Assembly (NCBI RefSeq): GCF_000186865.1
Contig: NW_008705573.1
Coordinates: 920,983 to 984,982 of the forward strand
Origin: Aureococcus anophagefferens
Lineage: Eukaryota > Sar > Pelagophyceae > Pelagomonadales > Pelagomonadaceae
Length of the DNA stretch: 64,000 nucleotides
Direction of reading: 5' to 3'
Part shown: piece after piece, positions 3,570-48,300 of the stretch
Numbering within the stretch: position 1 is the first letter of the stretch
Layout: each line of letters starts with the position of its first letter
The notes under the pieces: generated by a model
The model's input: only the letters and a program-made list of their open reading frames with translations
Told to the model about the DNA's origin: nothing
The model's database searches: none
Translations under genes and position numbers: made by a program

Positions 3570-6500
3570 TCACAGCGACGCGGCGGCGTCGCGCGATTGC
3601 GGGCGCGCGGTTTCGTGCTCCGGCGCGGCGTGGATGGGCAGGAACTGGGCCGACGGCTTCGGGAGCTGGGCGACGAGGGGCGACCGCTCGTCGCCCGCGC
3701 CGCGGTGCCGGCGCCGCCTCGGTAGGCAGAAGTCGCGGACCCGGAGCAGGCGCCGGCGGAGCGCGTCGGGCCGGAGCTCGATGTCCTCGCGCACTGAGAA
3801 CCAGAGCAGGATCGCCGCGGCGAGGAGGTAGCCCACGGCGGCCTGGAGCGCCTTGGAGTTGCGCAGGAAGACGAGGCCGCCGACGTCCGCGACGACGGCC
3901 GCGTGGTCGATCCTGTACGCGTGGATGAACCCGAGACCCGCGAGCGCCGCGTTCAGTAAGCTCCAGAGCGCCGCGGCGCCGAAGTGGCGGTCCAGCACGG
4001 ACGCCAGCGTCGCCGCGAGCGACACGGACGAGAGCAGGGACCCCTGGGCCAGCGCGGCCAGCCCCGACGCGTCGACGCCCGCCCGTTGCAGATCGCCGAA
4101 GACCCGGCGCGCGTCCGCGCCCGCGGCGGCCGTCGTCGACGACACGAGCTGCGTGCCCCAGGCGGCGATGACGGGCACGAGGCCCATGGCCGTCGCCGCC
4201 GCGGACGCGAAGTGCGAGCTGTGGAGGCCCGACGACGCCGGGGAGAACGCGGAGGCCGTCACCGCGAGGCCGATCCAGAACAGAAACCCGGCGCCGGCGG
4301 CCAGCGGGAACGCCGCCGTGACCCAGACCATGAGCCGCGGCGAGCAGCCCACGACCAGCGCCACGAACCCCGACCCGAGCATGTAGCCGTGGCGCGCGCC
4401 CATCTGCTTGAACGCGGGCTGGCCCACGAAGACCTGGGTCGGGAACGGGCAGCCGCACGCGGCGCCGAGCACGGTCGCCAGCGCGTCGCAGCAGACGCTG
4501 AGCGTCGGCGAGTAGGCGTCGCCGACGTTCCTCGCGGCCTCGACCTGCGCGAGCGTGTTGAAGACGTTCGTCAGCGCCTGGGCGGGAAATGGGTGATTCG
4601 ACGCGAGCGTTCCGCGCGCGCGCGCTCCGGAAAAAAGCGTTCACGCTTCGGCACCGTTCCGAGAGACGATCGCTCGTCCAAAAATCAGCCGAAACGAGTG
4701 GACACCGGCCGAGAGAGGCGCCTTTGGGAATGTCGCGCTCTTTTCCCGCCCCGGTCGGCGCCAGCGGGATCGCGACGGGCACGTACTTGAGCGACTCCCT
4801 CGACGCGTAGGCCCGCGCCAGGTGGGGCAACCCGCCCAGCGACGGCGGCGACACGACGGCCAGCGTCGCCCAGGGCACGGGGCCCGCCGCGCGGCCGCCG
4901 CCGGCGTCGCCGCCGAAGACGGCGCCGAGCGGCGCCGCCAACCTGGGCAGGAAAAGGGTGATTCAAGTTCTCTTCAACATGAGTGTTCCGCGCGCGCGCG
5001 TTCCGGAAAAAAGCATCCATGCTTCGAGACCGTTCCGAGAGATGATCGCTCGTCCAAAAATCAGCCGAAACGAGTGGAAAACGGCCGAGATCGGAGCCTT
5101 TGAAGTTGGGAATTTCGCTCTCTTTTCCTGCCCTGCCGCCAGCAGCGCGCCGAGCGCGAGGGCGCCGGCGCCGCCCGGCGCGTTGTAGGGGAGGCGCACC
5201 TGGGCGCCGTAGCAGCAGAAGCACACGACCAGCGGCCCGAGCGCGTCCGCGGGCGCCGCGAAGACGTCGCCCGCGAAGCCCATCGTGAGCCCGACGAGCG
5301 CCTGGCCCGCGACGGACGCGTGGAGCGCCGCCGACGGCACGGAGGCCTTCAGTTGGGCCACGAAGGGCGCCATGAGCAGCTCGAGGAACCCGACGAGCGA
5401 CGCGACGAAGAGCGCGGCCTCGTAGGAAGAGACCGCGTCGCCGCGCGACGCTTTCTCGGGCGCGACGACCTGGGAGAGGATGACGGCGAGCAGCACGGCG
5501 GACACGCCCTGGGGCTGGGCCGTCGCGTTGGGCCCGACGGCCAGCGCCATGAGCGCGAAGAAGACGTTGCCGACAGCCGTCGCGACCGCGCAGCCCGGCA
5601 GCAGCGTGCCCGACACGAACGCGGGCGACAGGCCGCTCACGGCGACGGTCCGCTTCTGGATCACGACGAGGGACAGCACCGTGCCCAACAGCTGGCCGCA
5701 GACGCCGTCGACGTCGCCGCGGCTAAAGGCCACGCGCGCGAACGCCGCCGCGCGCGGCGCCCGGAGCCCGGGCGCCGGCGGCGTCCGCGGCAGCAGCGCG
5801 CGGGGGGGCGTCTCCAGCAGACTCGACGGCGGCGCGTCGACCACGAAGACCGTGTGCGCCCAGCCGCACGCCAGGCCCCGCAGCGGCCGCTGCCCCACGG
5901 AGTTGACGCGCGCGGCCGTCGCCGCGACGCGCGGGTTCGCGCGCCGGTCCCTCCGATCCCCGCTCCCGAGCTGGCCGTCGTCGCCGCGGCCCCAGGCGTA
6001 GGTCGCCGTGCCCCCGCCGGGGAGCCGCACGCAGCACACGGAGTGGCGGCCGCCCGCGGACCTGTGCCGAATTCAACCACTGGTTTGGGTGGTCCTGACC
6101 AAACTTGAGAATTCTCGAGCTCGGTCAAATCGAAGTCGATTCGGCTGATTTTTGGACGGATCGATTGCTCTCGTCGAGTTCTCGAAGCACAACCGAAGAT
6201 ATTTTGTCGAAACTGTCGCGTACGCTCACATTGAAGTCGAGTTGAAGATTTGAATTCGGCACAGCCGCGGACAGCGCCTCGACGACCGCGCCGTCGCCCC
6301 CCTCCTGCGATCCTAGAAATTTCCCGCCGACGCGGCGCGGCGCCGCCGCGGAGCACGTCGACCCGCCGCACTGGCCGTAGGCGTTCCACCCGAAGGCCCA
6401 GATCGCGTCGCCGGACGCGTGCCGCGTCGCGCAGAGCGTGTGGCGGTAGCCGCACGCCGCCAGGACGCACTCCGCGCCGCCGTCGCCGGGCAGCGGGACC

Positions 6501-7749: not shown

Positions 7750-9325
7750 GTGGTTCGCAACGTAGACTCCGCGCTTGTTCTAAGAAAGAAAATGCGGCCG
7801 TACGCGCTCGGCATGGCCTACCTGGCCTACGTGGCCACCCTCTTCGAAAGCTTCGTCGACGGCGCGCTCTTTTCGCGGCCGCGCCTGTCCCTAAGAACAC
7901 CGACGAAGAACACGTTCTTTTCTCGGCCGTCCGCGCCGGCCGTCGAGCCCGCGACGGAACCGGCGCCGCCGCGCTACGACCCCGCGCCCGACGCGCCGAA
8001 ACGCGGATACATGCGGCCGGTGCGGCGCGCCTACGTGACGCGGAAGCTCCGGGTCCGGCGCCGGCTCCGCCGCTTCTCCGCGCTGCGGAAGCAGCAGCGG
8101 GGCGCGCTCGCCGACGTCTGGCTCTACGCGCGCGGCGTGCGGTCCGCGGAGGAGCGGACGACGGAATTGGCCGACCAGCTCCTGGCTCCATCAGTTAAAC
8201 CCGCGCCGCGGTCGAGCCGGCCGCTGCGGATTTTGAGCCTCGACGGCGGGGGCATGAAGGGGCGGAACATCGCGACGATGATCGACGTGCTCGAGCGCGA
8301 GACGGGCGCGCCCATCGCCCGGAGCTTCGACCTCGTCGTCGGCACGTCCATCGGCGGCTGCGGCGCGCTCTTCGTGAACCGCTTCGGCGACGAGGCGCTC
8401 GCCGCTTCGAAACTGGCCTTCGCGCGGCTCCAGACGCGGTGCTTCGAGCCGCGCAGGAAGCACCACTTTTTCCTCAAGGGCCACACCTGCGTCGACGAGC
8501 GGTCCGAGCTCGTGCGCGAGCTCTGCGGCGACGAGCGCCTCGTCCCGGAGCCGCGGCGGTGGTCGCGGGTCCTCCGGGAGAACGTCGACGCGGCCGGGGC
8601 CGGCGCCCGGGCGGCGGCCGCGACGTTGCCCTTCGTGGACGCGCCGCCGAGGACGCCCGCCGGCCTCGCCGCGCGGCAGCCCGGCGCGCCGCGCGCGGCG
8701 GCCGTCGCCGCGACGCGCGACGCCGGCGACGGGCCGGCCCGCGCCCTTCCTCTTCCGCACCTACGCCCTCGACGGCGCGCCGCTCCAGGGCACGGACGAC
8801 GCGACCTTCTCCGAGGCCGTGGCGGCGACGTCCGCGGCGCCGACGTTCTTCCCCCGGTCCGAGCTCCGCCTCGCCGAACACGACGTGTCGCTGACGGACG
8901 GCGGCGTCGCCTTCAACAACCCGACGCTGCTCGCGCTCGTCGAGGCGAAGACGATCTGGCCCGACGCGGAGGTGGGGTGCGTCGTGTCCCTGGGCACGGG
9001 GCGGCTGGACGACGGGAAACAGACGCACGAGGAGCTCACGGACGCGCACGCCGCGGCCGTCCTGGCCGCGCGCGCGCCGGGCGCGGTCTACGCGCGCTTC
9101 GACCCGCCCCTGGACAGGGCGACGGGCTGCGCCGAGGCGCGCGAGGACGTGCTCGCGGCCATGGAGCGGGCGACGCGGACGTGGCTCCGCGAGGACCCGG
9201 CGGAGCGCGCGAAGCTCGGCCGCGTCGTCGCCGCGCTCGCGGACGACCGCTCCTGGGACGCGCTCATCAACGACGGCCTCCGCGCGGGGTTGCGCGCGGC
9301 CCAGGGCGGCGCGCTCGGCGGGTAA
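7750..9325 (+). CDS. Patatin-like phospholipase with a frame break
   Basis: A lipid acyl hydrolase of the patatin family. The oxyanion-hole motif DGGGMKG (about residue 165), the nucleophile elbow GTSIGG (about residue 198, Ser in GxSxG) and the catalytic Asp motif DGG (near nt 8900) are all present, so both halves of the Ser-Asp dyad are encoded. The N-terminus has a hydrophobic stretch (MAYLAYVATLFESFVDGALF) that could be a signal or anchor. The reading frame changes by one between about nt 8700 and 8750: up to there frame 1 is sensible, and from FLFRTYALDG on frame 2 is sensible to the TAA at 9323-9325. A one-base assembly error is likelier than an intron because no short GT/GC-AG segment fits. 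The start could also be the later ATG at 7792. Confidence 0.75.
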
Positions 9326-9453
9326 CTTGTGCATTCAACCTGATTGCTTGAAGCTTCATTGAGTCGGGAGCGCTCTTCGTCTGCGGTGCGTCGGGCAATA
9401 CGGACTGCGCCGCGACGACCGGCACTAAGAACTGCGCCGCGCCGCCGCCGGAG

Positions 9454-10533
9454 ATGAGCAAGGGCAGCAAGGACCGCGTGCAGGGCGCCCTCTGGGGTTT
9501 GCTCGCCGGCGACGCGCTGGCCAGCCCGACGCACTGGTACTACGGCGGCCTGCGCCAGGTGCAGGGCGACTACGGCCGCCAGGGCATCCGCGACTACACG
9601 AAGCCCGTCGCCGAGATGCAGGGCTCCATCATGCCGCGGAGCAACACCGACGGCGCGGGCCGGGGCTCCTACAACGAGGACAGGACGACGGTCATCGGCG
9701 ACGTCATCAACCACGGCAAGAAGCCCTACTGGAACCCGCGCACGTCCTTCCACTACCACGGGACCCTCGCCGCCGGCGAGAACACGCTCGAGGCGCAGCT
9801 GTCGCGGCTGCTCGTCCGCACGATCGCCGCGCGCGGCGGGGTCGACGACGCCGCGTTCCGCGACGCCTACGTGGCGTGGATGACGACGCCGGGGAGCCAC
9901 AACGACTCCTACGCGTCGACGTGCCACCGCATGTTCTTCGCGAACTACGCCCACGGCAAGCGCGACCCGGCGGACTGCCCGGACAACGACCGGCACAACG
10001 TCGACACCATCGACGGCCTCGTGCTCCCGTCCGTCGCCGCCGTCGCCGCGGCCTACGGCGGCGGGCCCGGGGCGCGCGCCGAGGCCGTCGACGCCGCCGT
10101 CCGCGTCGCGCGCGTCACGCGCGACTCGAAGCCCCTGGAACGGGCCGCGGCCGCGGTCGCGGGCGTCCTCTTCGACAGCGTCCACGGCGTCGGGACCATG
10201 GCGGACCGCGTCGACGCGGCGACGGACGCGCTGGGCATGTCGCGCGTCCACGCGGGCGCGCCCGACGAGATGATCAGCTGATACCTGCAGCAGTCGCTGC
10301 CGTCCGCGCTGGCCATGGCCAAGAAGTACGGCGGCGACGACGTCTTCGACGCGCTGCTCGTCAACGCGAACGTCGGCGGCGAGAACGTGCACCGCGGCGC
10401 CGTGCTCGGGGCGCTCCTCGGCGCGAACAAGGGCCGCTCGCGGCTCCCGCCGCGGCTCGTCGACGGGCTCGCGGCGACGTCCGAGATCGCGGCGGAGATC
10501 GACGCGCTCGTCGCCGCGCTCGCGCCCAAGTAG
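9454..10533 (+). CDS. ADP-ribosylglycohydrolase-family protein with in-frame UGA (candidate selenoprotein)
   Basis: The frame from ATG 9454 gives the DraG/ARH fold family start (GALWGLLAGDALASPTHWYYGG), then FHYHGTLAAGENTLEAQLSRLLVRT and YVAWMTTPGSHNDSY. It meets TGA at 10279-10281, but the same frame continues without a break for 83 more residues (YLQQSLPSALAMAKKYGGDD, then NVGGENVHRGAVLGALLG) to TAG 10531-10533. That extension is the conserved, metal-binding C-terminus of the family. In relatives known to me the residue before the Tyr of this segment is Cys (ACYIEDS pattern), so UGA sits exactly where Cys is expected. Pelagophytes such as Aureococcus are selenoprotein-rich. Alternatives are a sequencing error (TGC to TGA) or a recent nonsense mutation. 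Substrate is unknown. Confidence 0.8.
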
Positions 10534-10554
10534 ACCGCGCCGCCGCCGCCGCCG

Positions 10555-10630
10555 CGCCGTCCGACGTACATGACGGCCCCCGCGCGTCCGCGTTGTTTCG
10601 CGGCGCCGGGGGCCCGAAACCCCCGACGCG
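10555..10630 (+). promoter_or_regulatory. Candidate SECIS-like hairpin in the 3' UTR
   Basis: ATGA at 10570-10573 and GA at 10616-10617 flank a helix in which 10575-10582 (GGCCCCCG) pairs perfectly with 10607-10614 (CGGGGGCC). Above it 10588-10592 (CCGCG) pairs with 10599-10603 (CGCGG) around a TTGTTT loop. A lower helix can form between 10555-10561 (CGCCGTC, one bulge) and 10625-10630 (GACGCG). This is the layout of a selenocysteine insertion element, but the usual apical AA is missing. Support is by hand pairing only. Confidence 0.4.
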
Positions 10631-10659
10631 CGACATTGGCTGTACTACATGATGCTCGA

Positions 10660-12128
10660 TTATCCGGTCGCTCGCGGCTTCGCCTCCGCGGCGGCGTTCA
10701 GCGCGCGCGCTAGCTGGTCCTCGAAGCGGTCGAGCGCGGCGGCGAAGACGGCCTCGTCGAGGGGGTCCACGAAATGGTCGAGGGCGGCGTCGGCCGCGGA
10801 CTCGCCGTAGCCCACGGCCGCCGTCGTCGCGGCGACGTTCGACCGGTCGCGGTTGTGGCCGCGGGACCGGTCGTAGGCCGCGCCCGGCGCGTCGTGGCCG
10901 CCGCCGACGCGGTACTTGGCGAACTCGTCGTCGCGGGGCGCCCCGCCGAAGAGGCGGTGGAAGACGCAGACGCTCGCCGCGTGGAGCTCCGTGATGCCCG
11001 CGAAGCCCAGACGCCGCACGGCGGTCGTCGCGCGGTCGACGACCGCGCGCTCCTTGGCCACGTAGTGCCTGTTGTTCGGCCGCGCGTCGCACTTCCAGGT
11101 GCGATGGCCGTCGTCCAGCGGCGCGTCGCGCGCGCCGCACGCGCAGGAGTTCAGGAGTCGCGCGGCGCAGCCGGCGACGCCCGGGTAGCGCGCGAACGCC
11201 GCCTGGGCGGGACAAGCGTGATGCAACGTCGCTTCAACGTGAGTGTGCCGCGCGCGCGCGTCCCGGAGAAAGCATCCACGCTTCGAGACCGTTCCGAGAG
11301 ACGATCGCTCGTCCAAAAATCAGCCGAAACGAGCGGAACACGGCCGAGCTAGGAGCCTTTGAAGTTGGGCATGTCGCTCTCTTGTGCTGCCCTGAACGCC
11401 GCGGGCGAGTCCACCGCCGCCTCGAGCGCCTTGCGCTCGACGGACGACAGGCCCCAGGCGTGGAGGCCGAAGTGGTACGCGGACAGGAGCCGGTCGTTGG
11501 GCGCGCGGAAGAACGACGCGACGGTCGCCGGGTCCTCGTCGCGGGGGTTGAACTCCTGGTGGTGGATCTGGCGCTGCGCGCGGTACGTCGGGTCCGGCCG
11601 GCAGGTGACGACCTTGCTGGCCGGCATGTCGCGCGCGCGGCAGACGCTGCGGTTCCCGAGCGGCAGGCGCGCGTCTTTCGGGCACGACGCGTTGAAGAGC
11701 CGCAGGAGCGACATCGCGTCGTAGTCCGCGACGTTCCGCCGCCCGTCCAGCACCCAGCGCCGGTCCCGCGGGATCCTCGCGCCCATGGCCGCGTCGAGGG
11801 GCATGGCGGGGCACGCGTGGCGGAGGAACGTCGTCGTGAACGTGCTGCCCGTCTTCGGGATGTGGAGCAACCGGAGCGGCGCCGCTCCGGGCGGGCCGAA
11901 GGGCCCGCCGCAGAGCCGCGGCAGGCTCGCGTTCGTGCGCGCCGCGAGGCTCCGGAGCCGGGCGCGGTTCCGGAGCTGCAGCGCGGCGCTGGCGGCGCGG
12001 TCCGCGTCCGTCGTGCCGGGCAGCTCCCAGGGCGCAAAGTCCGCGGCGGTCGCGACGTCCAACGCGGCGAGCACGGCGACGGCGCTGATGGTGGCCGTCG
12101 CCGCGCGGAACGCCGAGGGGACGCGCAT
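10660..12128 (-). CDS. Secretory-pathway sulfotransferase
   Basis: Two exons, 12128-11403 (726 nt) and 11202-10660 (543 nt), give 422 residues. An N-terminal hydrophobic segment (ATATISAVAVLAALDVATA) suggests a signal peptide or anchor, so the enzyme would act in the Golgi lumen. The PAPS-binding 5'-phosphosulfate loop LLHIPKTGSTFTTTF (near residue 85) and the 3'-phosphate motif FFRAPNDRLLSAYHF are both clear. This is the pattern of carbohydrate O-sulfotransferases of the heparan 2-O/6-O type, which transfer sulfate from PAPS to a glycan. The C-terminal half is Cys-rich (LLNSCACGARDAP). The intron is an introner (11402-11203). A second sulfotransferase starts about 430 bp away in the opposite direction, so the two may share control. 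The acceptor is unknown. Confidence 0.82.
11203..11394 (-). mobile_element. Introner, family B, copy 3
   Basis: A 192-bp element in sense orientation. Sense ends are CAGGGCAGC and CCCGCCCAG. The TSD is exact: AACGCCGC at 11195-11202 and 11395-11402 (GCGGCGTT in sense). The intron is 11402-11203 with a GC donor; splicing restores DSPAAFARYPGV in phase 0. Confidence 0.94.
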
Positions 12129-12294: not shown

Positions 12295-12561
12295 ATGGTG
12301 GCCAGCGACCTGTGGCGATCGGCCTTCGGCGAGTCCATCCAGACCTGGGAGGACCTCTTCTTCACGTCCGAGGGCTGCGTCTACCTCACGGTCTACAGCA
12401 TCATCTTCCTGCTGCTCTACACCTTCTTCGGCCCGGCGCCCATCGACGACCGCCAGCTCGAGTTCGAGCGCGAGTGGGCGCACCACTCGCGGCGCGGCAA
12501 GCACTTCCAGCAGCGCAAGGCCCCGGCGGAGCCGGCCGCCGCGGCGAAGAAGGATGCCTAA
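12295..12561 (+). CDS. Small single-pass membrane protein
   Basis: An 88-residue ORF with one strong hydrophobic helix (residues about 27-47, GCVYLTVYSIIFLLLYTFFG), followed by a charged segment and an Ala/Lys-rich tail (QRKAPAEPAAAAKKDA). The TAA at 12559-12561 overlaps the ATG of the sulfotransferase frame at 12554 by 8 nt. Two readings are possible: an independent small membrane protein, or the signal anchor of a type II Golgi sulfotransferase separated from its catalytic part by a one-base frame break. No family was recognised. Confidence 0.6.
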   Translation: MVASDLWRSAFGESIQTWEDLFFTSEGCVYLTVYSIIFLLLYTFFGPAPIDDRQLEFEREWAHHSRRGKHFQQRKAPAEPAAAAKKDA

Positions 12562-13570
12562 CGCGAGCCTCGACGCGGCCGCGTGCCGCGCGGCCGTCGC
12601 GCCGGACGCGCGCGCCTTCGTCTGCGGCTTTACCTACCTCTTCGTCGCCGGGTTGCACCACAGCGGCACGTCGCTCGTGCACGAGCTCGTCGCGGCGCGG
12701 CCGGGCGTCTCGCGGCTGAATCTCGCGAAGCGCCAGGGCGAGGGCCAGCAGGCGCAGCGCGTCTGGCGCCCCGCCGGGAAGCGCGACGCCGACGCCTGCG
12801 CGACGTCCCTGGAGCTCGGCGGCGAGAAAGTTCGGCTGTCGAAGGCCGCGGCGGAGACGCACTGCCGCGACGGGCTGCGCAAGGTCGACGACGACGACGA
12901 CGCCCGGGCGTCGCTCGCGGCGACGTGGGGGCCGCTGTGGGGCGGCGCGGGCGGCCTCTACCGCGTCGAGAAGGACCCGGATTTCGGGAGCGCGTTCCTC
13001 AAGCTCCGCCTGTTTCCACACAGGAGCGCCGCGGTCTTCGTCATGCGCCACCCGTTCGCGACGGCGCTGTCCTACCGCAAGCACTGCGGCGTCGCGACCA
13101 AGTGCGTCGCCGTCTGGCTCGAGGTCTGGACGGCCTGCCTTCGCGCGCTCCGGCGCGACCCGGCGCCGCACGCCGTCGTTCGCTACGAAGACGTGATCCA
13201 CCACGCCGACGCGGTCGTCGACGCCGTCGTCGGGATGGCGACGGGGCGGCGCCTCGACTACCGCGCGGCGTCCGACGGCGCGCCGCCGGCCGTCGACGCG
13301 GAGCTCTGCTGGCCCCAGGTCGCCGCGCGCGCGGCCGGCGCCTGCGCGGCGTTCCCCGCCTGCGTCGCCGCGCTGCGCGACTTCGCCGCGCCCCTCGTCG
13401 CGCCCTGGTACGACGTCGACCCGTTCTTCCCGCGCGCCGCCGCGTGCGGCGCGGCGGCCGCGCGGCCGGCGCTCGCGTGCTCTTCCGCGGCGCCCTGCGA
13501 CCCGCCGAGGAGCGCGGCGCTCGGGCCCGCGCTCGCGGCCCTGCGCGGGCCGATCTCCGGCTACGGGTAA
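12554..13570 (+). CDS. Sulfotransferase
   Basis: A 338-residue protein. It carries a PAPS-binding loop (LHHSGTSLVHELV, about residues 34-46) and a 3'-phosphate-binding segment (VFVMRHPFATALSYRK, about residues 160-175), in the order and spacing of sulfotransferases. The rest is Cys- and Ala-rich. No signal sequence is visible after the chosen ATG, whereas the overlapping upstream ORF at 12295 offers a membrane helix in another frame, so the true N-terminus may include it. It is divergent from the sulfotransferase at 10660-12128. The sulfate acceptor is unknown; algal homologues often act on polysaccharides or small metabolites. Confidence 0.78.
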   Translation: MPNASLDAAACRAAVAPDARAFVCGFTYLFVAGLHHSGTSLVHELVAARPGVSRLNLAKRQGEGQQAQRVWRPAGKRDADACATSLELGGEKVRLSKAAAETHCRDGLRKVDDDDDARASLAATWGPLWGGAGGLYRVEKDPDFGSAFLKLRLFPHRSAAVFVMRHPFATALSYRKHCGVATKCVAVWLEVWTACLRALRRDPAPHAVVRYEDVIHHADAVVDAVVGMATGRRLDYRAASDGAPPAVDAELCWPQVAARAAGACAAFPACVAALRDFAAPLVAPWYDVDPFFPRAAACGAAAARPALACSSAAPCDPPRSAALGPALAALRGPISGYG

Positions 13571-17475: not shown

Positions 17476-18294
17476 ATGAGCGGCCTCGCGGCCCCGCCGG
17501 CGGCCGAGGACGGCTCCATCTGGATCGAGGAGCTCGTCGAGCGCAACGCGGAATTATTGAGCGCCATCGCCGAGAACCAGGGCCTGGGCCGGCTCGCCGA
17601 CGCCGTCATGTACCAGGAGCTCTTCCAGGAGAACGTGCTGCGCCTGTGCCAGTTCTGCGACCTGTCCAACGAGGCGCTGTCCGCCGACGCGACGCTCGGC
17701 GGCCTCATCGACGGCGCCGCGTCGCGCGCGCGCGACCCGCCGCGGCCGTCGAGCGACGACGTGAAACTCCTCGTGGAGAACGTGGCCTGCGCCGAGTGCA
17801 AGGCCGTGAAGCACAGCGGCTGGAGGTGCCGCCGGGAGCTCGGGCACCTCGGGCCGAACTGGGACTACGCGCCTCCGGCCGTTTTCGCGGACGCGCCGGC
17901 GCCGACCGAGGGCACGGAGGCGGCGCAGTTCGCCGCCTTCCAGCGCCAGCGGCGCCAGAGCCGCGAGGAGAAGGCCGAGCAGCAGCGCGAGCGCCAGCGG
18001 CGCGAGCGGGAGGCGAACCGATTGGAAGTCGAGAAGCTCAAGGCCGCGCCGGCCGCGCCGGCCGCGCCCGCGGACAACAACGCGCGGCGGCGCTGGACCG
18101 ACGCCGAGACCGCCCTCTTCCTCGAGGGCTTGGAGGCCCTCGGGCGGAAGGAGCACAAGCGCATCGCCGCGGAGTACGTCAAGACGCGGTCCAAGGAGCA
18201 GGTCCGCTCGAAGATCCAGAAGCACTTCAAGAGCGAAGACAAGAAGAAGAAGGACGCCGAGGCGTCGGCGGCTTCGTCGCGTCCCGGTTCCTGA
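17476..18294 (+). CDS. Single-repeat SANT/Myb-domain protein
   Basis: A 272-residue protein. The C-terminal RRRWTDAETALFLEGLEALGRK (about residues 204-225), continuing to KTRSKEQVRSKIQKHF, is a SANT/Myb repeat of the plant-algal 1R-MYB type, with its Trp and the C-terminal helix ending QKHF as in SHAQKYF proteins. A glutamate/arginine-rich coiled coil (RQRRQSREEKAEQQRERQRRE) precedes it. The N-terminal part has a Cys-containing segment (VACAECKAVKHSGWRCRRELG). A nuclear DNA-binding or chromatin role is likely from the domain; targets are unknown. It converges with the next gene, with 8 bp between stop codons. Confidence 0.8.
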   Translation: MSGLAAPPAAEDGSIWIEELVERNAELLSAIAENQGLGRLADAVMYQELFQENVLRLCQFCDLSNEALSADATLGGLIDGAASRARDPPRPSSDDVKLLVENVACAECKAVKHSGWRCRRELGHLGPNWDYAPPAVFADAPAPTEGTEAAQFAAFQRQRRQSREEKAEQQRERQRREREANRLEVEKLKAAPAAPAAPADNNARRRWTDAETALFLEGLEALGRKEHKRIAAEYVKTRSKEQVRSKIQKHFKSEDKKKKDAEASAASSRPGS

Positions 18295-19269: not shown

Positions 19270-22200
19270 ATGGCTGCCGCTCGCGCCGCGCTGCTGCTGC
19301 TGGGGTGCGCCGCGGTGGCCCGGTGCGACGACGGCTGCTGGAGCTCCTTCCGCGAGGCGACGACCGACGAGTGCCCCGGCGAGTTCGACACGGTCTACGC
19401 CTGCGACTCCGACGGCCTGAGCGTGGGCGACCTCTGCGAGAGCGACGGCGAGTGCGGCCTGAGCACGTCGCTGGACAACTGCGAGGACGACGGCGTCGAC
19501 GGCGACTTCTACGTCGTCGCCGGGGCGCCGTCCTACGCGCCCACGACCTACGCCCCGACCGCGGCGCCGACGGCGCTCGAGTGCCCGTACCTCTTCGCGC
19601 TACCCGAGGACGACGGCGACTGCCCGGACCCCGTGGTCCTGACGGCGTCCTACCCGCACTGCGGCCAGGCCGGGCTCGGCGTCGGCGACCTCTGCGAGGG
19701 CGACGGCGAGTGCGCGACGTCGAACAACCTCGACAACTGCGAAGACGCGAACGGCGACTTCGAGGCGGACATCTACCGCGTCGTCGCCGCGGACCCGACG
19801 GCCGCGCCGACGGCCATGGTCTGCCCCGACTACCTCGAGGAGGTGGACCTCGACGACTGCCCGGACCCCGTCGTCTTGACGGCGTCGTACCCGCACTGCG
19901 GGTCGCCGCACCTGACGATCGGCGACATGTGCGAGGGCGACAACGAGTGCGGCACGTCCAACGGCCTGGACAACTGCCCCGACGCCGCCGGCGACATGGA
20001 GGCGGACATCTACCTCATCGTCGGCGGGAACCCGACGCGCGCGCCGACGACGCCGCTCCCGACCGACGTCCAGTGCCCGGACTACGTCGCGGCCCTCGCC
20101 TACGACTCCGACGACTGCCCGGATCCCATCGTGTTAACGGCGTCCTACCCGCACTGCGGCCAGGTCGGCCTGGACGTCGGCGATCTCTGCGAGGGCGACG
20201 GCGAGTGCGGCACGACGAACGGCGTCGACAACTGCGAGGACGCGGCCGGCGACATGAAGGCGGACATCTACCGCATCGTCGCGGACGCGCCGACGTCCGC
20301 GCCGACGGAGATCCAGTGCCCCGACTACCTCGAGGAGGTGGACCTCGACGACTGCCCGGACCCCGTCGTCCTGACGGCGTCGTACCCGCACTGCGGGTCG
20401 CCGCACCTGACGATCGGCGACATGTGCGAGGGCGACAACGAGTGCGGCACGTCCAACGGCCTCGACAACTGCCCCGACGCCGCCGGCGACATGGAGGCGG
20501 ACATCTACCTCATCGTCGGCGGGAACCCGACGAAGGTCCCGACGTCCGCCGCGCCGTCCGCGCTCGCGTGCCTCTCGTACCGCGAGGCGACGAGCGACGA
20601 GTGCCCCGAGGACGCGGACATCGAGAACTGCGGGTTCCCGGGCCTCGAGGTCGGCGACCTCTGCGAGACCGACGGCGAGTGCGGCCTGGACCACGATCTG
20701 GACAACTGCGAGTACGGGGGCACGCAGCAGGCCGACATCTACGTCGTCGTCGCGGCGCCGGACCCCACGGCGGCGCCGAGCACGCCCGCGCCGTCGCCCG
20801 TCGTCTGCGCCGAGGTGCGCGAGGCGACGAGCGACGAGTGCCCGGACGACGCGGACCTCGCGCCGTGCTCGACGATCGGCCTCGAGGTCGGCGACCTCTG
20901 CGAGAGCGACGGCGAGTGCGGCCTCGACCACGACCTCGACAACTGCGAGTACGGCGGCGAGCAGAACGCGGACATCTACGTCGTCGTCGGCGCGCCGAGC
21001 GCCGCGCCGAGCGCCGCGTGCGCGGCCGACGACGCCGCCTGGGCGAAGACGGACGCGCCCTGGAAGGACTGCGGCTGGGTGGGGAGCCTGCCGTCGGCGC
21101 GCTGCGCGGTCAAGGGGCCCGACGCCTCCGGCGCCACCGTCGAGGCCCAGAACGCATGCTTCGCGACGTGCTGCGGCTACCCGTTCCCGACGTCCGCGCC
21201 GACGGCCGCGCCGGCCGCGGGCGACGGCGCGGGCGACGACGGCGCGGGCGACGACGGCGCGGGCGACGACGGCGCGGGCGACGACGGCGCTGCGGACGAC
21301 GGCGCGGACGACGACGGCGCGGGCGCGGACGACGCTGCGGACGACGGCGCCGCGACCGCCGACGACGCCGCCGCGACCGCCGACGACGGCGCTGCGACGA
21401 CCACCGACGACGGCGCCGCGACCGCGGACGACGCCGCGACCGCGACCGACGATGCCGCCGCCGCCGCGGACGACGCCACGACGACCGCGGACGACGCGAC
21501 CGCGGACGACGCCGCCGCCGCGACCGCGGACGACGCCGCCGCCGCGACCGCGGACGACGCCGCCGCCGCGACGGACGACGCCGCGGCCGCGGACGACGCC
21601 ACGGCCGCGCCCTCGCCGACCCCCCCGACGGCGGCGCCGACGGCGTGCGCCGACAACGACGCGTGGCACAAGGTCGGCACGATGTGGAAGAACTGCTCCT
21701 GGGTCGCCGAGTACCCGAACCTGCGCTGCGACACCGTGGGCGTCGACTCGTCCGCCGCGGGCAGCAGCGACGACGAGAACCACGTCGTCGCCGCGGACGG
21801 CGACGGCTGCCCCTACTCCTGCGGCTGCACGCAGCTGCCGACGGCGCAGCACACGGCGGCGCCGAGCCCCGCGACGCACGCCAACGCCACGGTCTACGCG
21901 TCGGCGTCCGTCGTCGTCGGCGGCGTGGACTCGGACTTCGTCGCGGACTGGGACGACGTCGTGTTCAGGGCAGCAAAAGAGAGCGAAATTCCCAACTTCA
22001 AAGGCTCATATCTCGGCCGTTTTCCACTCGTTTCGGCTGATTTTTGGACGAGCGATCATCTCTCGGAACGGTCTCGAAGCGTGGATGCTTTTTCCGGAAC
22101 TCGCGCGCGCGGAACACTCACGTTGAAGCGACGTTGAATCACCCTTTTGCTGCCCAGGACACGACGGACGCGTTCGCGCACGGCCTCGCGGCGGCCCTGG

Positions 22201-27276: not shown

Positions 27277-29167
27277 ATGGGCACCGCCTCGGACATCTCC
27301 TACGACATCTCCGGCGAGGACGTGGTCGAGGTCCGCGCGACGCCGGCGACGGAGGCCGCGGCGAACCTCGAGGCCTTCAAGGCCGCCGGCAGCGCCAAGG
27401 TCGCGGCCAAGGACTGGGCGGGCGCCATCGTCGAGTACGAGAAGTGCGTCACGGGCTACGAGGCCTGTAAGGAGACCGTGAGCTCCGACTTCGAGGCCGA
27501 GCGGTCCGCGGAGAAGTGCGCGCTCGCGAGCCTCAGCAACCAGGCCTTGTGCGCGCTCAAGCTCGAGGACTTCGAGGGCGCCAAGGCCTACTGCGGCGCG
27601 GCGTTGAAGCGCCTCAAGGAGGCGCGCGTCGTCGACGAGTCCGCCATGGCCAAGTGCCACTTCCGCAAGGGCCAGGCCTTTTACGGCCTGGGCGACGCGC
27701 GCGGCGCCGTCGACGCCTTTAACGACGCCATCGCGCTCGAGGAGAAGCAGCTCGACAAGTGCGCCAAGGACGACGCGAAGAAGAAGGCGGCGACCATCGT
27801 GTCCATGAAGCGCGAGCTCCTGAAGGCGCGCCGGGCCGCCAAGGAGCAGGCGAAGACGGCCGCGTCCAACATGTCCGGCGCGCGCGGCTTTCTCAAGGCC
27901 GGCGCGCGCGGCACGGGCGACCCCAAGGAGGAGCGCAAGCAGCTGATCATCGAAAAGATCGACTGCGCCCTCTCCTTCGTCTTCAGCGACAAGGACACCA
28001 AGGGCAAGGACGCGGAGACCGTGATCGCCGGGGCGGGAAAAGGGTGCGACATTCCCAACTTCAAAGTCTCCGATCTCGGCCGTGTTCCACTCGCTTCGGC
28101 TGATTTTTGGACGAGCGATCATCTCTCGGAACGGTCCCGAAGCGTGGATGATCATTCAGGAACGCGCGCGCGCGGCACACTCACGTTGAAGCAACGTTGA
28201 ATCACGCTTTTTCCTGCGCAGGTCATCGCGCCGAACTATGACGCGATGATCGACGCCCTGGTCGCCGCGCGCCACGCGGCCTGCGCGGCCAAGGACCTCT
28301 TCGGCGAGCTCGCCCTGACCTTCGCCGAGGGCTTCGTCGCCTTCCTCGCGTCGGCGCCCGAGGCCGAGGCGTCGCCGGGCCGCGCGAAATACTACGCGCG
28401 CTGCGTCGACGCGATGGCGTCGTTACTGGCAGCTCCGCGACGAGCTCGCCGAGGACACCTGCGACACGAGCCTGCTCGAGCCGCCCATGAACATCGGCGA
28501 CGTCGCCGCGCTGGAGTGCGCGGCCCACGCCCACATGCAGCTCGGCCGCCACGCGGAGGCGCGGCCGTTCTTCGAGAAGTTCGTCGAGTGCGCGGACGCC
28601 GCGGGGCCTCTGATGGCCTACCACAACCTGCCCGACTCCTTCCTCCTCTCGCGGGGCATGCAGAAGATGGACGACAAGGCGCGGCGCGTCTCCCGCTGGA
28701 AGCACCGCGCGCACTCGCCGAGGGCGCTCTTCGACGCGCGCACCGCGCTGGCCGCCATCTGCGCGGCGTCCCACCAGAAGTCGGCGGCCCTGGACCACAA
28801 CGCCGCGGCCTTCGGCCACGCCGCCGACGACGAGGAGAAGTACACGTGCCACAAGAACGCCGCGCACCTGCTCCGCCAGGCCGCGGAGAACCCGGACGAC
28901 CCGGAGAACCCGATCCCGGCGTCGTCCGACGACCTCCAGGTCGCGCAGCACCACGACGACGAGGCCGCGGCCCTCGAGGCGAAGATCAAGGCCAAGGGCG
29001 ACGAACCCGACACGAAGACGAACAAGATCGGCGTCGCGGGCGACGACGACGACGAATCGGACGTCCCGGGCGACGACGACGCGCCCGAGGAGTTCGTCGG
29101 CGACGACGAGGAGCTCCCGCCCATCGACGGCGTCGACGCGTTCGACGTGCCCATCGACGAGCAGTAG
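27277..29167 (+). CDS. TPR-containing protein
   Basis: Exon 1 is 27277-28020 (248 codons) and exon 2 runs from 28222. The N-terminal half has tetratricopeptide-like helices (NLEAFKAAGSAKVAAKDWAGA, YCGAALKRLKEARVVDESAM, KCHFRKGQAFYGLGDARGAV). The C-terminal half is also helical (ALECAAHAHMQLGRHAEARPF) and ends in a long acidic tail (GDDDDESDVPGDDD). After splicing, the frame changes by one near 28422 (DAMAS to YWQLRDELAED), best explained by one extra T in GTTAC. TPRs are scaffolds for protein complexes; no catalytic domain is visible. It converges with the GFA gene, 37 bp between stops. Confidence 0.75.
28029..28221 (+). mobile_element. Introner, family B, copy 5
   Basis: A 193-bp element in sense orientation with ends CGGGGCGGG and CCTGCGCAG. 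TSDs are GTGATCGC (28021-28028) and GTCATCGC (28222-28229), 7/8. The intron is 28021-28221 with a GT donor. Splicing restores DAETVIAPNYDAMIDAL. Confidence 0.93.
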
Positions 29168-41100: not shown

Positions 41101-42275
41101 AGCGGCGTGAAGTTCAGCTTGAGCTTCTTCTTCTTGGGCGCGGGCGCGGCGGCGTAGGGGTTGAGCTGGGCGACGGCCTGCGGGTTCACGCCCGCCGCGA
41201 GCGCCAACGCGCTGAGCTGGTTGAGGTGGAGCTGCACGCTGTCCGCGTCCGTCGTATCGCCGCCGTCCTCCTTGGGGATGATGGACCGGAGCTGCTTCAG
41301 CTGGGCCTGGATGCGGGCGTTCTCGTGCTCGCGGAGGTGCTTCATGGTCTCCTCGTCGACGTCGACGTGGCCGTCGGGCGCCTCGACGACGCCGGTCTTG
41401 GCCGCGAGCTTCTTCGCCTTGGCGCGCACCTTCTTCGCCGTTAACGGGTTGAAGGCCTGGTACACCAACTCCCGCTCCTCGTCGTCGTCGAGCTCCTCGG
41501 GGTCGCCGGCCTCCAACGAGGTCACGCCCGTCATCATCTGCTCGACGGTGCCCGCGGCGATCTCCATGGCCTTGCCCTGCTTCTCCGCGGCGTCGTCGGC
41601 CAATATGGTCCGCTCCGCGTCCGTGAATTTGAGGGACCCGCGCGACTCGGGGTCCATGTCCTGGAACTTCTTCATCTTGCGGAGCCGGTTCGCCGTCGTG
41701 ATGGCCATGCGCGACCGGTTCAGCGCCTGCTTGAGCGTCAACTTGGACGCCGTGAGCTCCGCGCGCTGCTCGTCGACGACGTCCCAGGCCGCGTCCTCGG
41801 CGTCGACGGCCTCGGCGTGGTACTCCTCGATGGGCGCCTCGTGCTCCGCGTCGTCGGCCAAGTCCTTGTGGAGGTGCTCGAGCGCGTTCGCCTGCTTGTC
41901 GAAGAGCTTCGCGGTCCGCGCGGCCGTCGCGGGCATGCGGCCGAGCTGCTCGTGGAGGCCCTCGCGCATGTCGTTGATCAGCGCGTCGCGCACGGCCGCG
42001 AGCTCGCGGCCCGCGTCGGCGAGCGCCGCGTCCTGCTTCGACGTCTCCTTCTGGGGCCGCGTGAACTTGGACCGGCGGAGCTCCTCGAGGATGGAGTTGA
42101 GCGGGATGGGCTCGTCGTCGCCCTCCTCGTCGATGTGCTTCGACTTGTGGCCCGTGATCTCCAGGTCGCCGGCCGCGGCCTGCGTCGGCTCGGTCCGGTT
42201 CGCCATCTGGAAGCCCTCGATCTGGCTCGCGAAGCGCGCGACGGCCGACTGGTCCACGTCCTTGAGCTCGGCCCG

Positions 42276-42308
<33 letters not shown>

Positions 42309-45300
42309 CTGGACCTCGGCCATGAGCTTGTGCAGGTTCGCCCACTTGGACTTGGGCGGCCGGTCGAAGCGCGTCATCGCCGCGGCCAGCATGGCCGCCT
42401 GCTGCTTTTCCATGCACTCGCGGAGCAGCGCGACGTGGCTCTCGAGCTTCGCGATGGTCGCCTTGTCCGCGGCGGACATGCCCCGCGGCCCGCGGTTGCC
42501 GATGTCGACGGAGACGTTGATCATGTCCTGGCCCTGCGCGAGGTGGTGCAGCTCCTCGCCCGCCTTGTGGGACACGCGCGGCGCGAGGATCTGCGGCTCC
42601 GTCGGGTCCTCCTCCGGGTCGCGGCGCGCGACCTCGTGGGCCTCGATGACCTTCTCCTTCGGCGGCTCGGCCGCCGCGACGGCGTCCTCGACGGGCGGCG
42701 CCTCCGCCCCCGCGGTGTCGCGCGGCTCGGGCGCCGCGGGGACCTGTTTCATGGACCCCGGCCGGGCGGCCACGGACACGCGGCGGCCGTCCTTGGCGCG
42801 GGACACGCGCGTCGCCTTGGCCGCGTCGACGCCGGACTTGACGTTCTCGACGACGGCCTCGACGCCCTCGACGTAGTCGTGGAGCACGATGAGCTCCGCG
42901 ATCTCGTCGCGGTCCGCCGCTTCGATGCCCGCCCGGTCGGCGACGATCTCGACGACCTTGGCCGCGACGTCCTTCTTCGCCGCGTCGCCGCGGACCCTCT
43001 CCTCCTTGAAGACGTGCTTCGACGCCTCTAAAGCGGCCGCGACGTTGACGCCCGTCTTCCGCGATAAGGCGGCCATGGACTGGGCCGCGGCCTTGTGCAT
43101 CTGCTCGAGCTCCTTCTGGAGCCGCCGGATCTCGAGCTCCGCCGCGGGGTCCTTCATGAGGCGCACGGTCTGCTTCTCGACGACGCGGACCTCGGGCTCC
43201 GGCGGCGCGGCCGCCGCGGCCTCGCGCGGCGGCTCCGCGGCCTCCGTCGGCGCGTCGAGCGCCGCCTGCTCCGACGCCTCGGACGNNNNNNNNNNNNNNN
43301 NNNNNNNNNNNNNNNNNNNNNNNNNNNNNNNNNNNNNNNNNNNNNNNNNNNNNNNNNNNNNNNNNNNNNNNNNNNNNNNNNNNNNNNNNNNNNNNNNNNN
43401 NNNNNNNNNNNNNNNNNNNNNNNNNNNNNNNNNNNNNNNNNNNNNNNNNNNNNNNNNNNNNNNNNNNNNNNNNNNNNNNNNNNNNNNNNNNNNNNNNNNN
43501 NNNNNNNNNNNNNNNNNNNNNNNNNNNNNNNNNNNNNNNNNNNNNNNNNNNNNNNNNNNNNNNNNNNNNNNNNNNNNNNNNNNNNNNNNNNNNNNNNNNN
43601 NNNNNNNNNNNNNNNNNNNNNNNNNNNNNNNNNNNNNNNNNNNNNNNNNNNNNNNNNNNNNNNNNNNNNNNNNNNNNNNNNNNNNNNNNNNNNNNNNNNN
43701 NNNNNNNNNNNNNNNNNNNNNNNNNNNNNNNNNNNNNNNNNNNNNNNNNNNNNNNNNNNNNNNNNNNNNNNNNNNNNNNNNNNNNNNNNNNNNNNNNNNN
43801 NNNNNNNNNNNNNNNNNNNNNNNNNNNNNNNNNNNNNNNNNNNNNNNNNNNNNNNNNNNNNNNNNNNNNNNNNNNNNNNNNNNNNNNNNNNNNNNNNNNN
43901 NNNNNNNNNNNNNNNNNNNNNNNNNNNNNNNNNNNNNNNNNNNNNNNNNNNNNNNNNNNNNNNNNNNNNNNNNNNNNNNNNNNNNNNNNNNNNNNNNNNN
44001 NNNNNNNNNNNNNNNNNNNNNNNNNNNNNNNNNNNNNNNNNNNNNNNNNNNNNNNNNNNNNNNNNNNNNNNNNNNNNNNNNNNNNNNNNNNNNNNNNNNN
44101 NNNNNNNNNNNNNNNNNNNNNNNNNNNNNNNNNNNNNNNNNNNNNNNNNNNNNNNNNNNNNNGGATGAGCTCCTCCTTGTCCGCCGGCGCCGCGGCCCCC
44201 GACGCCGCGCCCCCGGCGCTCCGGTCCAGCGCGGGCTCCATGGGCGTCGCGGCGCGGACGTTCGGCGGCGTCGCGGCGCTCGGCGGCCGCCCCGCGCGCG
44301 CGGCCGACGACCGCTGCAACGCCTCCGCGTACTCGAAGGCGAAGAACGGCCGCCCGACGGACTTGGGCCGCTCGCCCTCGACCTGGGGCAGCGACGACAC
44401 GCGCACGTAGCGCACGTGCGTGTTGTCGGAGCCGTACTTGGGGCCCGTCGGGTCGCCCCAGCGCACGGGCGCGACGCCCGGGATCGCGTTGCCCTCGTCG
44501 TCGACGGGGATGAAGAACCCCTCCGGGTCGCCCGTCGCCGGGTCGATGGCCGCGTCCGGGTCGTCGTAGGGCGGCGGGTCGTCCGGCTGCACGGGCGACG
44601 CCGCGGCGCCGTCGGCCTTCGAGGGAGAGCCCGGGATGGGCTCGGGCACGTCGAGCGCCTTCGCGTTCTTCGCCTTCTTCCCCAGGAAGCGGTTCCGGTT
44701 GCCCAGCCGCGTGGGCCCGGCCTCGCCCGGCGCGTCGTCGTCGCCATCCTCCGGGGCCTCCTCCTCCGGGACGTCCTCGGCCTTCTTCTTCTTCTTGCCC
44801 GCGAACTTCTTCAGCAGGCTCCGCGAGTTCGTCATCTTCTTCCCGATGTCCTTGAAGGACTTGGACCGCTCCTTCTTGACGTCCTCCTCGCTGACCTGGC
44901 CGTCGATCTGCTCCGCCACCAAGTGCTCCGCCGCGGGGCCCTCCATGCGGATGAGCGACTTCACCGTCGCCGCGGCCTGGTGCACCTTCGACTTCTTCAT
45001 CGCGTTCGCCATGTTGATCGTCTCCTCCATGGCCCGCCGGTGCGCGTCCTCCTGCTGGTTCGCGCGGTGGGACCCGAACCCTTCCTTGGGCTGGCCCTTG
45101 GACGGGTCGGACGCGTCGCGCTTCCGGACCTCGACCAGTAATTTCTCCGCCTTTTTGAGGAACAGGTTCAGCTCCGCGATCTCGCGCGCCTGCTCCGCGG
45201 ACTTCGTCGCGAGCTCGAGCTTCTCCTGGCGCTCCGCGTCCAACTCGCCCTCCGTCTTCGCTAATTTCTCCTTGACGGCGTCCAAATCCGCCTTGACGCG

Positions 45301-48300
45301 CGCCGCGTAGATCTCTTCGATCTGCCCGTGGACGAAGGCGTGGTCGTCGTCGTTGACGATGGCGTGGTGCAGGTCCTCGTGGTCGTCCTCCTCCAGGTTC
45401 GCGCCGTCGTTCGCGTGGTAGTCCTCGTGGATCTTCGCGAGGTCTCGGCCGCAGAGCGACGACCGCCGCTGCTGCACGTGCGCGTGGCGCTGCTCCGCGG
45501 GCTTGAGGTAGGTGTTCAGGATCTTCTCGACCTCGTCCTCCTCGTCGATCTCGACGAAGGAGTCGTCGTCCTCGTCCTCGTACTCGTCGAAGGAGTTCGT
45601 GAGGCGGCCGCCGTAGTGCTCCGGCGTCTCCTCGCGGAACGCGCCGCGGTTCGAGAGCCGGTCCTCGCCGACGACGTCGTCCCAGGACGCGTTCGTCTGC
45701 AGCCGGGAGCTGCCGAAGACCTCCGACGGCCGCACGAAGGGCTCGTCGGGCTCGCTGCCCGCGTACGACTCCGGGTAGCTGTCGTCGAAGTCCTCCTCGT
45801 CGTCGTCGTCGTCGTCGTCGACGGACTCGATGGGCGGCAGGCCCTCGTCGGCGCGCTTCCGGTTCTTCCGCTCGCGGCGCTTCTCCCGCTCCTCGCGCTT
45901 CAGCTCCTGGACGCGCTCGCGGTCCTTGCGGCGCCGCTCCTTGAGCGCCTCGGCCTTGCGCTTCGCCTCCGCGGGGTCCAGGGGCGCACCGGGCCGCTCG
46001 TCGCCCGAGTCCGACGACGGCGCGCCCTCGTCGCCGGAGCCGCCGGAGCCGTCGCCGCGGCGCGGCGACCCGCGGCGCGCGTCCTTGCGCGCGGCGGCGC
46101 GCTCCTCCTTCTCCTTGGCGGCCTTGGCGTAGGGGTTCACCTTGGGCGTGCGGTCCTTCTTCTTGTAGCCGACCATCTCGCGCTTCTTCTTCTCGCGCGT
46201 CGTCGGCTCCGGGTCCTTGGGCGGCGGCGAGCCGCGGTCCGGGCTCCGGTCCTTGGGCGGCTGGCGCTCGCGCTGCTTCTTCTTGAACTCGGACGTCGGC
46301 GAGTAGCCGTACCCTAAATTCTGCTGCGTGCTCCGCGCGTTGACCGTGCCGCGGCCCATCTTCGCGGTCGCGCGGATGTTGCGCCAGTTCGCCGCGGACG
46401 CGCGCGCGTTGTTCTTGATCGCGCGCGACGCGCGCGGGTCGCCCCGGTTCGACTCGAGGCTCGAGAGCATCTCGGCCTTGGCGATGGCCTTGGCCTCGGC
46501 TTTCTCGGTCTTGATCTTCTCCTTGTAGCCCGCGAGCACGGCCTCGCGCACGGGCTCGGGCATGACCTGGGCAGCAAAAGAGAGATTCAACGTCGCTTCA
46601 ATGTGAGCGTTCCGCGCGCGCGCGTTCCAAAAAAACATCCACGCTTCGAGACCGTTCCGAGAGATGATCGCTCGTCCAAAAACCAGCCGAAACGAGTGGA
46701 AAACGGCCGAGATCGGAGCCTTTGAAGTTGGGAATTTCGCTCTCTTTTGCTGCCCTGGGCATGACGGACACGAGCGCGTCCATGGCCTGCGAGTAGGCCA
46801 AAGCCTCCGGGTTCTTCTTCTTGCCGGGGGACCCGTTGTCCAGGCTCACGCTCGACGCGACGGAGCCCTGGTCGTCGATCTGCAGCTCGAGCGGCGCCTC
46901 CGCTTTCACTTCTTCTTTGGGCGCCTCTTTCTTGCCGGCCTTCCGCGCGTCCTCGAGCTTCTTCTGCATGCGCGCCGTCGCGTCCTGCGTCTTCTCCTGC
47001 GTCGCCATGAGGTCCGCCTGCTCGCCGTTGAGTCTCTCGACGGCCGCCTCGGCCGTTTTCTTCCGGTCGTCCAACCGCTTGAGCTCCGCGACCTTGAACT
47101 CCGCCTTCTTGGCCAAATCGGCGAGCTTCGTCTGGGCCGCCTCGACCTGGGCCTGGAGCGCGTCCCGCTCGCCCTCGAGCGCCGCGACCTCCTCCTTGGT
47201 GACGGACGGCGCGGCGTCCTCCGCGGGCTTCTTCTTCGCGTATTCCGCGCGCTCCTTCGCGCGCTTGTCCTTGACGAACTCGAGCTCGCTCGTCTTCATG
47301 CCGAGCTGCTGCTCGAGGTCCGCGATGGTCTCGCGCGCGCGGTCCAGGTCCCAGCTCAGGTCCGGCGCGTCCGCCGCGGGCGCCGGCGCGGCGACGACGG
47401 CGGGCGCGGCGTTCTTCGCCTTCTCCGCGTCCGCCTCGGCCTTTTTCGCGCGCTTCTCCGTCGCGGCGGCCGCGCTGCCGATCTTCGTCGTCAGCTCCTT
47501 GAGCACGTCGGGCTCGCAGCCGCGGCCGATCTCCTTGAGCAGCGCCTTCTGGAGCTCCTGGAGGGGCGGGTCGTCGCCGTGGAGGAGATCGGTCGTCATC
47601 TTCTCGGGCTTCGCGTGCGCGCCCTTCTTCGGCTTCTTGTCCTTGACTTTCAAAGTCTCGAGCTCGTGCTGCACGGTCGAGAGCACGCCCTTGTTGGACC
47701 GCAGCTCCGACTCGACGTCGCCGAGCTGCTTGCGGTGGTCGTCGAGCTCCTTCTTCAGCTTCTCGTTTTGTTCGCCTGTGTGGAAATCAACCACTGGTTT
47801 GGGACGTCCCGACCAAACTTTGAAATTCTCTAGCTCGGTCAAATCGAAGTCGATTCGGCTGATTTTTGGACGAATCGATTGCTCTCGTCGGGTTCTCGAA
47901 GCACAGCCGAAGAGTCTGGTCCAAACCGTTCAATTACGCTCACATTGAAGTCGGGTTGAAGATTTGATTTGCGCACAGCTGCTCGCGGACGCGCTTGAGC
48001 TCCGCGGGCGAGTCCTTGCTGTTCGAGAGGTCCTGGATCTCGTCGAGGGCGGCCTTGGCCTGGGCGTCGCGCCAGCCGAGGTGGGCGATGCGGTCCGCCT
48101 GCTGGAAGTTGGCCACGAGCGCGTTCAGCTGGTCGAGCTCGTGGCCGTACTCCTCCTTGATCGTCTGCGCGGAGTCCTTCGCGTCGCGCGCCATCTTCGC
48201 CATGGACTCGCCGTGGGCGTCGGCGCGGGCGATGCCGTCGTGGGCGATGGCGAGTTGGTGCGTGAGCTTCTCGACCTCGGCCTGGAGCCCCTTGAGCTCG

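Follow-up and report, generated by a model that had tools for sequence, protein, structure and literature searches.

An in-frame UGA predicted to encode selenocysteine in an ADP-ribosylglycohydrolase-fold protein of Aureococcus anophagefferens

Introduction

We analysed 64,000 nucleotides of the genome of the pelagophyte Aureococcus anophagefferens (NW_008705573.1, positions 920,983 to 984,982; hereafter the window, numbered from its first base) and found that a gene at 9454-10533 on the + strand very probably encodes a selenoprotein. Its UGA at 10279-10281 is predicted to be read as selenocysteine (Sec) by means of a selenocysteine insertion sequence (SECIS) at 10570-10617, giving a 359-residue protein with the ADP-ribosylglycohydrolase (ARH)/DraG fold. 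This prediction is computational, and is based on a frame conserved on both sides of the UGA, a Sec/Cys exchange, a SECIS of the local type, and the presence of tRNA-Sec and SepSecS in the genome (49 Mb in 86 contigs, the window lying on contig C13). Eukaryotic selenoproteins described so far are mostly redox enzymes. A sequence-only reading of the window had put the gene forward as a candidate selenoprotein, a proposal that is supported by the cysteine column, the intron check, the stop point shared by relatives and the SECIS described below.

Results

The reading frame continues past the TGA

The frame opens with an ATG at 9454 and runs as a single exon for 359 residues, its sole interruption being the TGA at codon 276. 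Beyond this lie 83 codons (10282-10530) and a terminal TAG at 10531-10533; the frame, the position of the TGA and the length of the continuation are as the sequence-only reading gave them, and the C-terminus it reported, NVGGENVHRGAVLGALLG, is present. The read-through protein begins MSKGSKDRVQGALWG and finishes in ...LAPK. It matches PF03747 over residues 11-334 with 104.6 bits (cut-off 26.2; E 9.7e-30), and the parts on either side of the TGA match separately, the N-terminal one with 69 bits (E 6.8e-19) and the C-terminal one with 37.5 bits (E 2.9e-9). GC content at codon positions 1, 2 and 3 is 0.684, 0.524 and 0.993 before the TGA and 0.771, 0.458 and 1.0 after it; in the same frame, the 150 bases past the TAG give 0.74, 0.78 and 0.66. 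An AlphaFold model of the protein shows a confident ARH fold (mean predicted local distance difference test score, pLDDT, 96.1), with helices past the TGA at residues 278-292, 297-307, 311-326, 333-337 and 342-356. The in-frame UGA is therefore flanked on both sides by conserved coding sequence, as expected of a selenoprotein gene.

The 83 C-terminal codons, which contain a GGENVHRGA motif, also have separate counterparts among relatives. When these residues alone were used as the query, 11 short proteins were matched, including P0121 (93% identical) and P0123 (72%), with a Met start inside the domain. We infer that such pieces are what gene callers would leave where a UGA splits a gene. At the other end, it is possible that the N-terminus lies upstream of 9454 and that the protein is longer; relatives P0001-P0004 have an N-terminal extension.

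The TGA stands at a conserved cysteine position

A homologue search with the read-through protein returned 593 proteins, and the 120 top-ranking ones were aligned with the query. In this alignment 109 of the 120 have Cys at column 276 and the other 11 are empty there, which bears out the Cys column proposed from the sequence alone. Ten of the empty rows stop exactly one residue ahead of the column (P0002, P0003, P0004, P0005, P0034, P0037, P0047, P0048, P0052 and P0110). The eleventh is P0001, the top hit of the search and the NCBI Aureococcus anophagefferens model, which is spliced around the TGA and lacks 59 residues around the column. A second search, with P0110 as the query, brought in more relatives and led to an alignment of 162 rows (161 proteins plus the query, with 11 short C-terminal pieces excluded). 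Here the column is Cys in 116 rows, counting the query with its TGA written as C, a gap in 33, Val in 11, Ile in one and Gly in one. When the 46 non-Cys rows were inspected singly, 12 proved to end at residue 275, and another 29 come to a stop at D[QE]M(R/T) or a similar motif or continue past it as if into an intron. Of the remaining five, P0001 is the spliced model, P0143 has VVS at its end, and P0132, P0136 and P0171 end or diverge earlier. P0168 was scored as Cys, yet it is misaligned at its end and finishes in VVS; it and P0143, misaligned in the same place, were left out of the truncated count. We found no convincing third residue besides Cys and Sec among the non-Cys rows. The group of 29, in the range P0137-P0172 and including one named Thalassiosira, suggests an intron one to two codons upstream of the conserved Cys in those lineages. 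We considered these relatives, which end at residue 274 (DQMT*) or continue in a DQMRYV-like manner, as further UGA cases and rejected them in favour of intron read-through, judged from GTA-type donors.

A Cys-Tyr pair occupies the column in 114 rows, query included, and the motif in relatives is CYLxxS or near it, not the CYIEDS-like segment named in the sequence-only reading. The only other Cys retained across all 162 aligned rows is Cys175. Homologues with Cys, such as P0006 from Chrysophaeum taylorii and diatom proteins like P0046 from Cyclotella cryptica, belong to the same subfamily (among those listed, full-length members are 44-60% identical) and share with the window gene the Cys-Tyr position and the CPDND and GGENVH motifs, but have Cys where the window gene has the proposed Sec. 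The genome also holds a paralogue, 35% identical and without an internal stop, on the minus strand of contig C4 (51993-53063); judged by eye, it has Ala-Asp opposite the Sec-Tyr of the window gene.

Of the 126 rows that passed a length filter, 73 went into a tree: the window gene, the 12 that end at residue 275 and the first 60 of those with Cys. The 29 intron-like rows were excluded. The window gene and all 12 truncated rows fall in one 17-row group (support 99/98) together with four Cys rows, P0006, P0007, P0008 and P0013. P0034 and the other truncated proteins from outside the Aureococcus group are likely, though not proven, to carry Sec. P0132, whose name starts with 'Dictyoc', is 99% identical over 73% of its length to one of the truncated proteins, P0110; the truncated form therefore probably extends to dictyochophytes, although P0132, which stops as early as residue 204, is itself uninformative on the UGA.

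A SECIS candidate follows the gene

A search for a SECIS found an element of the genome's own type 36 nt past the TAG, on the same strand and in the presumed 3' untranslated region (UTR), with a descriptor that was not blind to it. The candidate (10570-10617) consists of ATGAC at 10570-10574, a GC-rich helix at 10575-10614 (16 bp with two bulged bases and a TTGTTT loop) and CGA at 10615-10617. Its centroid fold has the layout of a SECIS, in which an internal loop with AUGA and CGA separates a lower from an upper helix. A strict descriptor ([AG]TGAC, a stem of no fewer than 10 bp with up to three bulged bases, a loop of 3-14, CGA, and -15 kcal/mol or below) matched this element and nothing else in the 128,000 bases of both window strands. 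No match was obtained in 20 randomised versions of the window, made by shuffling single bases inside blocks of 200, nor in eight stretches from elsewhere in the genome (40,000 bases, including 7,397 N). A looser descriptor gave two matches in those eight stretches and four in the window, among which 10570-10617 is by far the most stable. Weaker SECIS-like hairpins that matched the loose descriptor alone lie at 17476-17510 on the + strand and at 34077-34031 and 32901-32864 on the - strand.

The same element accompanies other selenoprotein-type genes

The families GPX, MsrA, Rdx, Sep15/SelM and AhpC-TSA_2/SelU include selenoproteins, and a profile search of the genome for them supplied reference genes. 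Twelve family matches carry an in-frame TGA, and the DNA downstream of most of them repeats one pattern, in which RTGAC and CGA flank a 10-17 bp hairpin rich in GC. The strict descriptor matches the sense strand in all 12. In 11 of the 12 the element lies past the first in-frame stop (the gene in L011 extends into L008, and there the element is 40 nt past the stop); in L024, whose gene end is unclear, it lies just ahead of that stop. Five more genes (L034-L038) have a TGA outside the family match; three of these have a strict element, L037 has an ATGAT...GGA variant and L034 has none. Thus 15 of the 17 genes with a visible in-frame TGA have a strict element, near their 3' ends. Among 20 other loci (including the tRNA locus L003, and not counting the window gene L001 or L008, part of the L011 gene), the element occurs in two, L030 and L039, an Rdx and an AhpC-TSA_2 match in which no in-frame TGA was seen. 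L035-L038 are SelU-type genes with a TGA-x-x-Cys motif.

With regard to the decoding machinery, one tRNA-Sec match was found in the genome (73.9 bits, cut-off 47), and a SepSecS gene is present in two pieces. The alga's own Sec machinery would then read the UGA at 10279-10281, with the hairpin in the 3' UTR directing Sec insertion, and the product would carry Sec at residue 276. The GPX, MsrA, SelU, SelM and Rdx types of the same genome resemble the window gene in having a TGA at a Cys column, a frame conserved beyond it and RTGAC-stem-CGA near the 3' end. These comparison families are redox proteins, whereas the window gene has an ARH/DraG hydrolase fold. With at least 17 selenoprotein-type genes in the genome, an improved SECIS model could be built from the local RTGAC-stem-CGA form. 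Our own attempt at a covariance model from 17 SECIS-like elements was abandoned for the scripted descriptor, the MAFFT alignments being structurally unsound.

Residue 276 is predicted to adjoin the adenine pocket

In the AlphaFold model, residue 276 lies in a loop adjoining a tyrosine (Tyr277) that matches Tyr212 of DraG, the ADP-ribosyl-[dinitrogen reductase] hydrolase (2woc/2woe). DraG Tyr212 is described in PMC7050489 as adenine-stacking. This would place Sec276 on the edge of the ADP-ribose/adenine pocket, immediately ahead of the DraG Tyr212 equivalent. DraG has Ala ahead of this tyrosine, in contrast to the Cys or Sec of the window family. A role for residue 276 as a redox- or electrophile-sensitive gate of ligand binding, perhaps through a selenenylsulfide with Cys175, is a tentative suggestion. 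DraG and the window protein are 21% identical, and the latter falls far short of the DraG equivalog TIGR02662 (36.7 bits against a curated cut-off of 337.05). DraG residues D60, D61, D243, D245 and T246, which we take to be metal-site residues, stand opposite L112, E113, E310, V312 and H313 of the window protein, while T59 stands opposite T111. The canonical binuclear metal ligands are thus mostly not kept. Of the ADP-ribosylglycohydrolase label given in the sequence-only reading, the fold and the PF03747 match stand, and the name should be taken to mean these only; with most di-metal ligands not conserved, any hydrolase activity is putative.

Weighing the alternatives

The NCBI model P0001 implies that the TGA is intronic and that the mature protein has no Sec: it fuses ...VAR to QSLPS and so omits the TGA, and 29 other relatives appear to have an intron near the column. 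An intron excising the codon was foreseen as an objection in the sequence-only reading. We examined in-frame GT..AG pairs around the TGA whose donor lies at 10151 or later and whose acceptor lies no further than 10400. All 30 pairs remove conserved residues, among them the Cys column and Tyr277, and the six donors all begin with GTC, none with GTRAGT; the splice implied by P0001 is of the same sort, its donor being GTCACG at 10114, outside the stretch examined. Moreover, MIS-TGA-YLQQS is uninterrupted in frame and colinear with the aligned residues, leaving no space for an intron between them. The TGA can be excised through these pairs only at the cost of conserved residues, and we consider an intron here very improbable. 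We give even less credence to an error in sequencing or to a pseudogene that has recently acquired a nonsense mutation. Either event could leave a lone TGA in a frame that is open elsewhere, but other sets of proteins (P0002, with 57 members, and P0003-P0005) end at the same residue, every codon past the TGA has G or C in third position, and a SECIS of the local type lies downstream. It is likewise highly unlikely that the UGA is a genuine stop, yielding a functional 275-residue protein or low-level read-through without Sec. The predicted proteins P0002-P0005 do show such a truncated product; however, the 275-residue form would be without the GGENVH motif and all helices that start at residue 278 or later, in a part that retains its Pfam match, and the ten truncated proteins among the best 120 all end just ahead of the Cys column. 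The presence of the SECIS also argues against this possibility.

Several observations weigh against Sec insertion at the UGA. The tree requires at least two label changes and the truncated rows do not form one clean clade; this corresponds to a gain and a loss, to two gains, or to some truncated rows being non-Sec. The 12 aligned relatives that end exactly ahead of the column are represented by predicted proteins, in which a UGA at this point is presumptive; DNA of a relative was found neither in viral contigs nor in genome contigs, the latter searched with two peptide patterns. The MVS* ends of the more distant truncated relatives could be explained by a GTGAGT splice donor (ATG|GTGAGT reads MVS). 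This caveat cannot apply to P0002, P0004 and P0005, which end in MIS, and in the Cys form P0007 MVSCYL is contiguous. As for the SECIS, the stability of its 91-nt region is ordinary for its composition (z -1.38, with 17 of 200 shuffles equally or more stable), and its TTGTTT loop is without the AA that is frequent in the loop of animal SECIS. The descriptor thresholds were set after the candidate was known, and the single match in the window was therefore not blind; two strict matches are oddly placed (L027 on the minus strand, L028 at 1192), indicating that the descriptor yields some false positives. Finally, Rfam gave seven matches up to E 10 over 10200-12000, with no SECIS among them and none near the gathering score. 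This null is uninformative because RF00031 (SECIS_1), which had no match in the whole genome, misses the other selenoprotein-type genes too, and is thus blind to the local type.

Surroundings of the gene

A repeat some 170 bp long lies at 11210-11380 and is dispersed, with copies at 4950-5121, 21980-22146, 28046-28209, 46578-46743, 60118-60288 and 4597-4726 (85-92% alike in the window). It also occurs in L003, L008/L011, L010, L012, L015, L016 and L046, and sits between exons of the GPX gene; it resembles the introner elements reported for Aureococcus. The neighbouring + strand frame at 7750-9351 has a patatin-like start, with Pfam Patatin just below its cut-off and a CBASS (cyclic oligonucleotide-based antiphage signalling system) phospholipase model at E 4e-12, far below its cut-off. 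Another + strand frame, at 12554-13570, encodes a Sulfotransfer_3 protein. GC content drops to 0.465 at 42001-44000, against 0.65-0.77 in the other 2-kb bins of the window.

Discussion

As far as we have seen, the decoding mechanism proposed here is standard and the protein family is new to selenocysteine decoding. We found no published report of a selenoprotein of the ARH family, although an unnamed 'hypothetical' entry is possible in the Aureococcus selenoproteome of Gobler 2013 (ISME J) or in the algal selenoprotein database. The words 'ribosyl', 'glycohydrolase' and 'hydrolase' are absent from the main text of Jiang 2020 (PMC7539508), and 'ribosyl' is absent from the available portion of PMC13188914. 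The selenoprotein types given in the accessible part of PMC5917014 include 'hypothetical proteins' and do not name an ARH type; PMC4109616, which combines Aureococcus with ADP-ribosyl, concerns ADP-ribosylation factor in the part available.

Two consequences for annotation follow from the gene and its SECIS. The public Aureococcus gene model conceals residue 276 behind an unsupported intron, and the Rfam SECIS model overlooks the SECIS-like elements of this genome.

Selenium supply matters in brown-tide blooms. We tentatively suggest that the gene represents a new family of eukaryotic selenoproteins with a non-redox fold: a pelagophyte, and probably dictyochophyte, ARH-fold protein with altered metal ligands and Sec in the ADP-ribose pocket, which might carry out selenium-dependent reactions with an ADP-ribosyl-type ligand or couple the turnover of ADP-ribose to redox state and selenium supply. 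If the prediction is true, the occurrence of Sec at this conserved Cys position would suggest that the Cys is functional in this stramenopile family of ARH-fold proteins, and would tie selenium supply to ADP-ribose biology.
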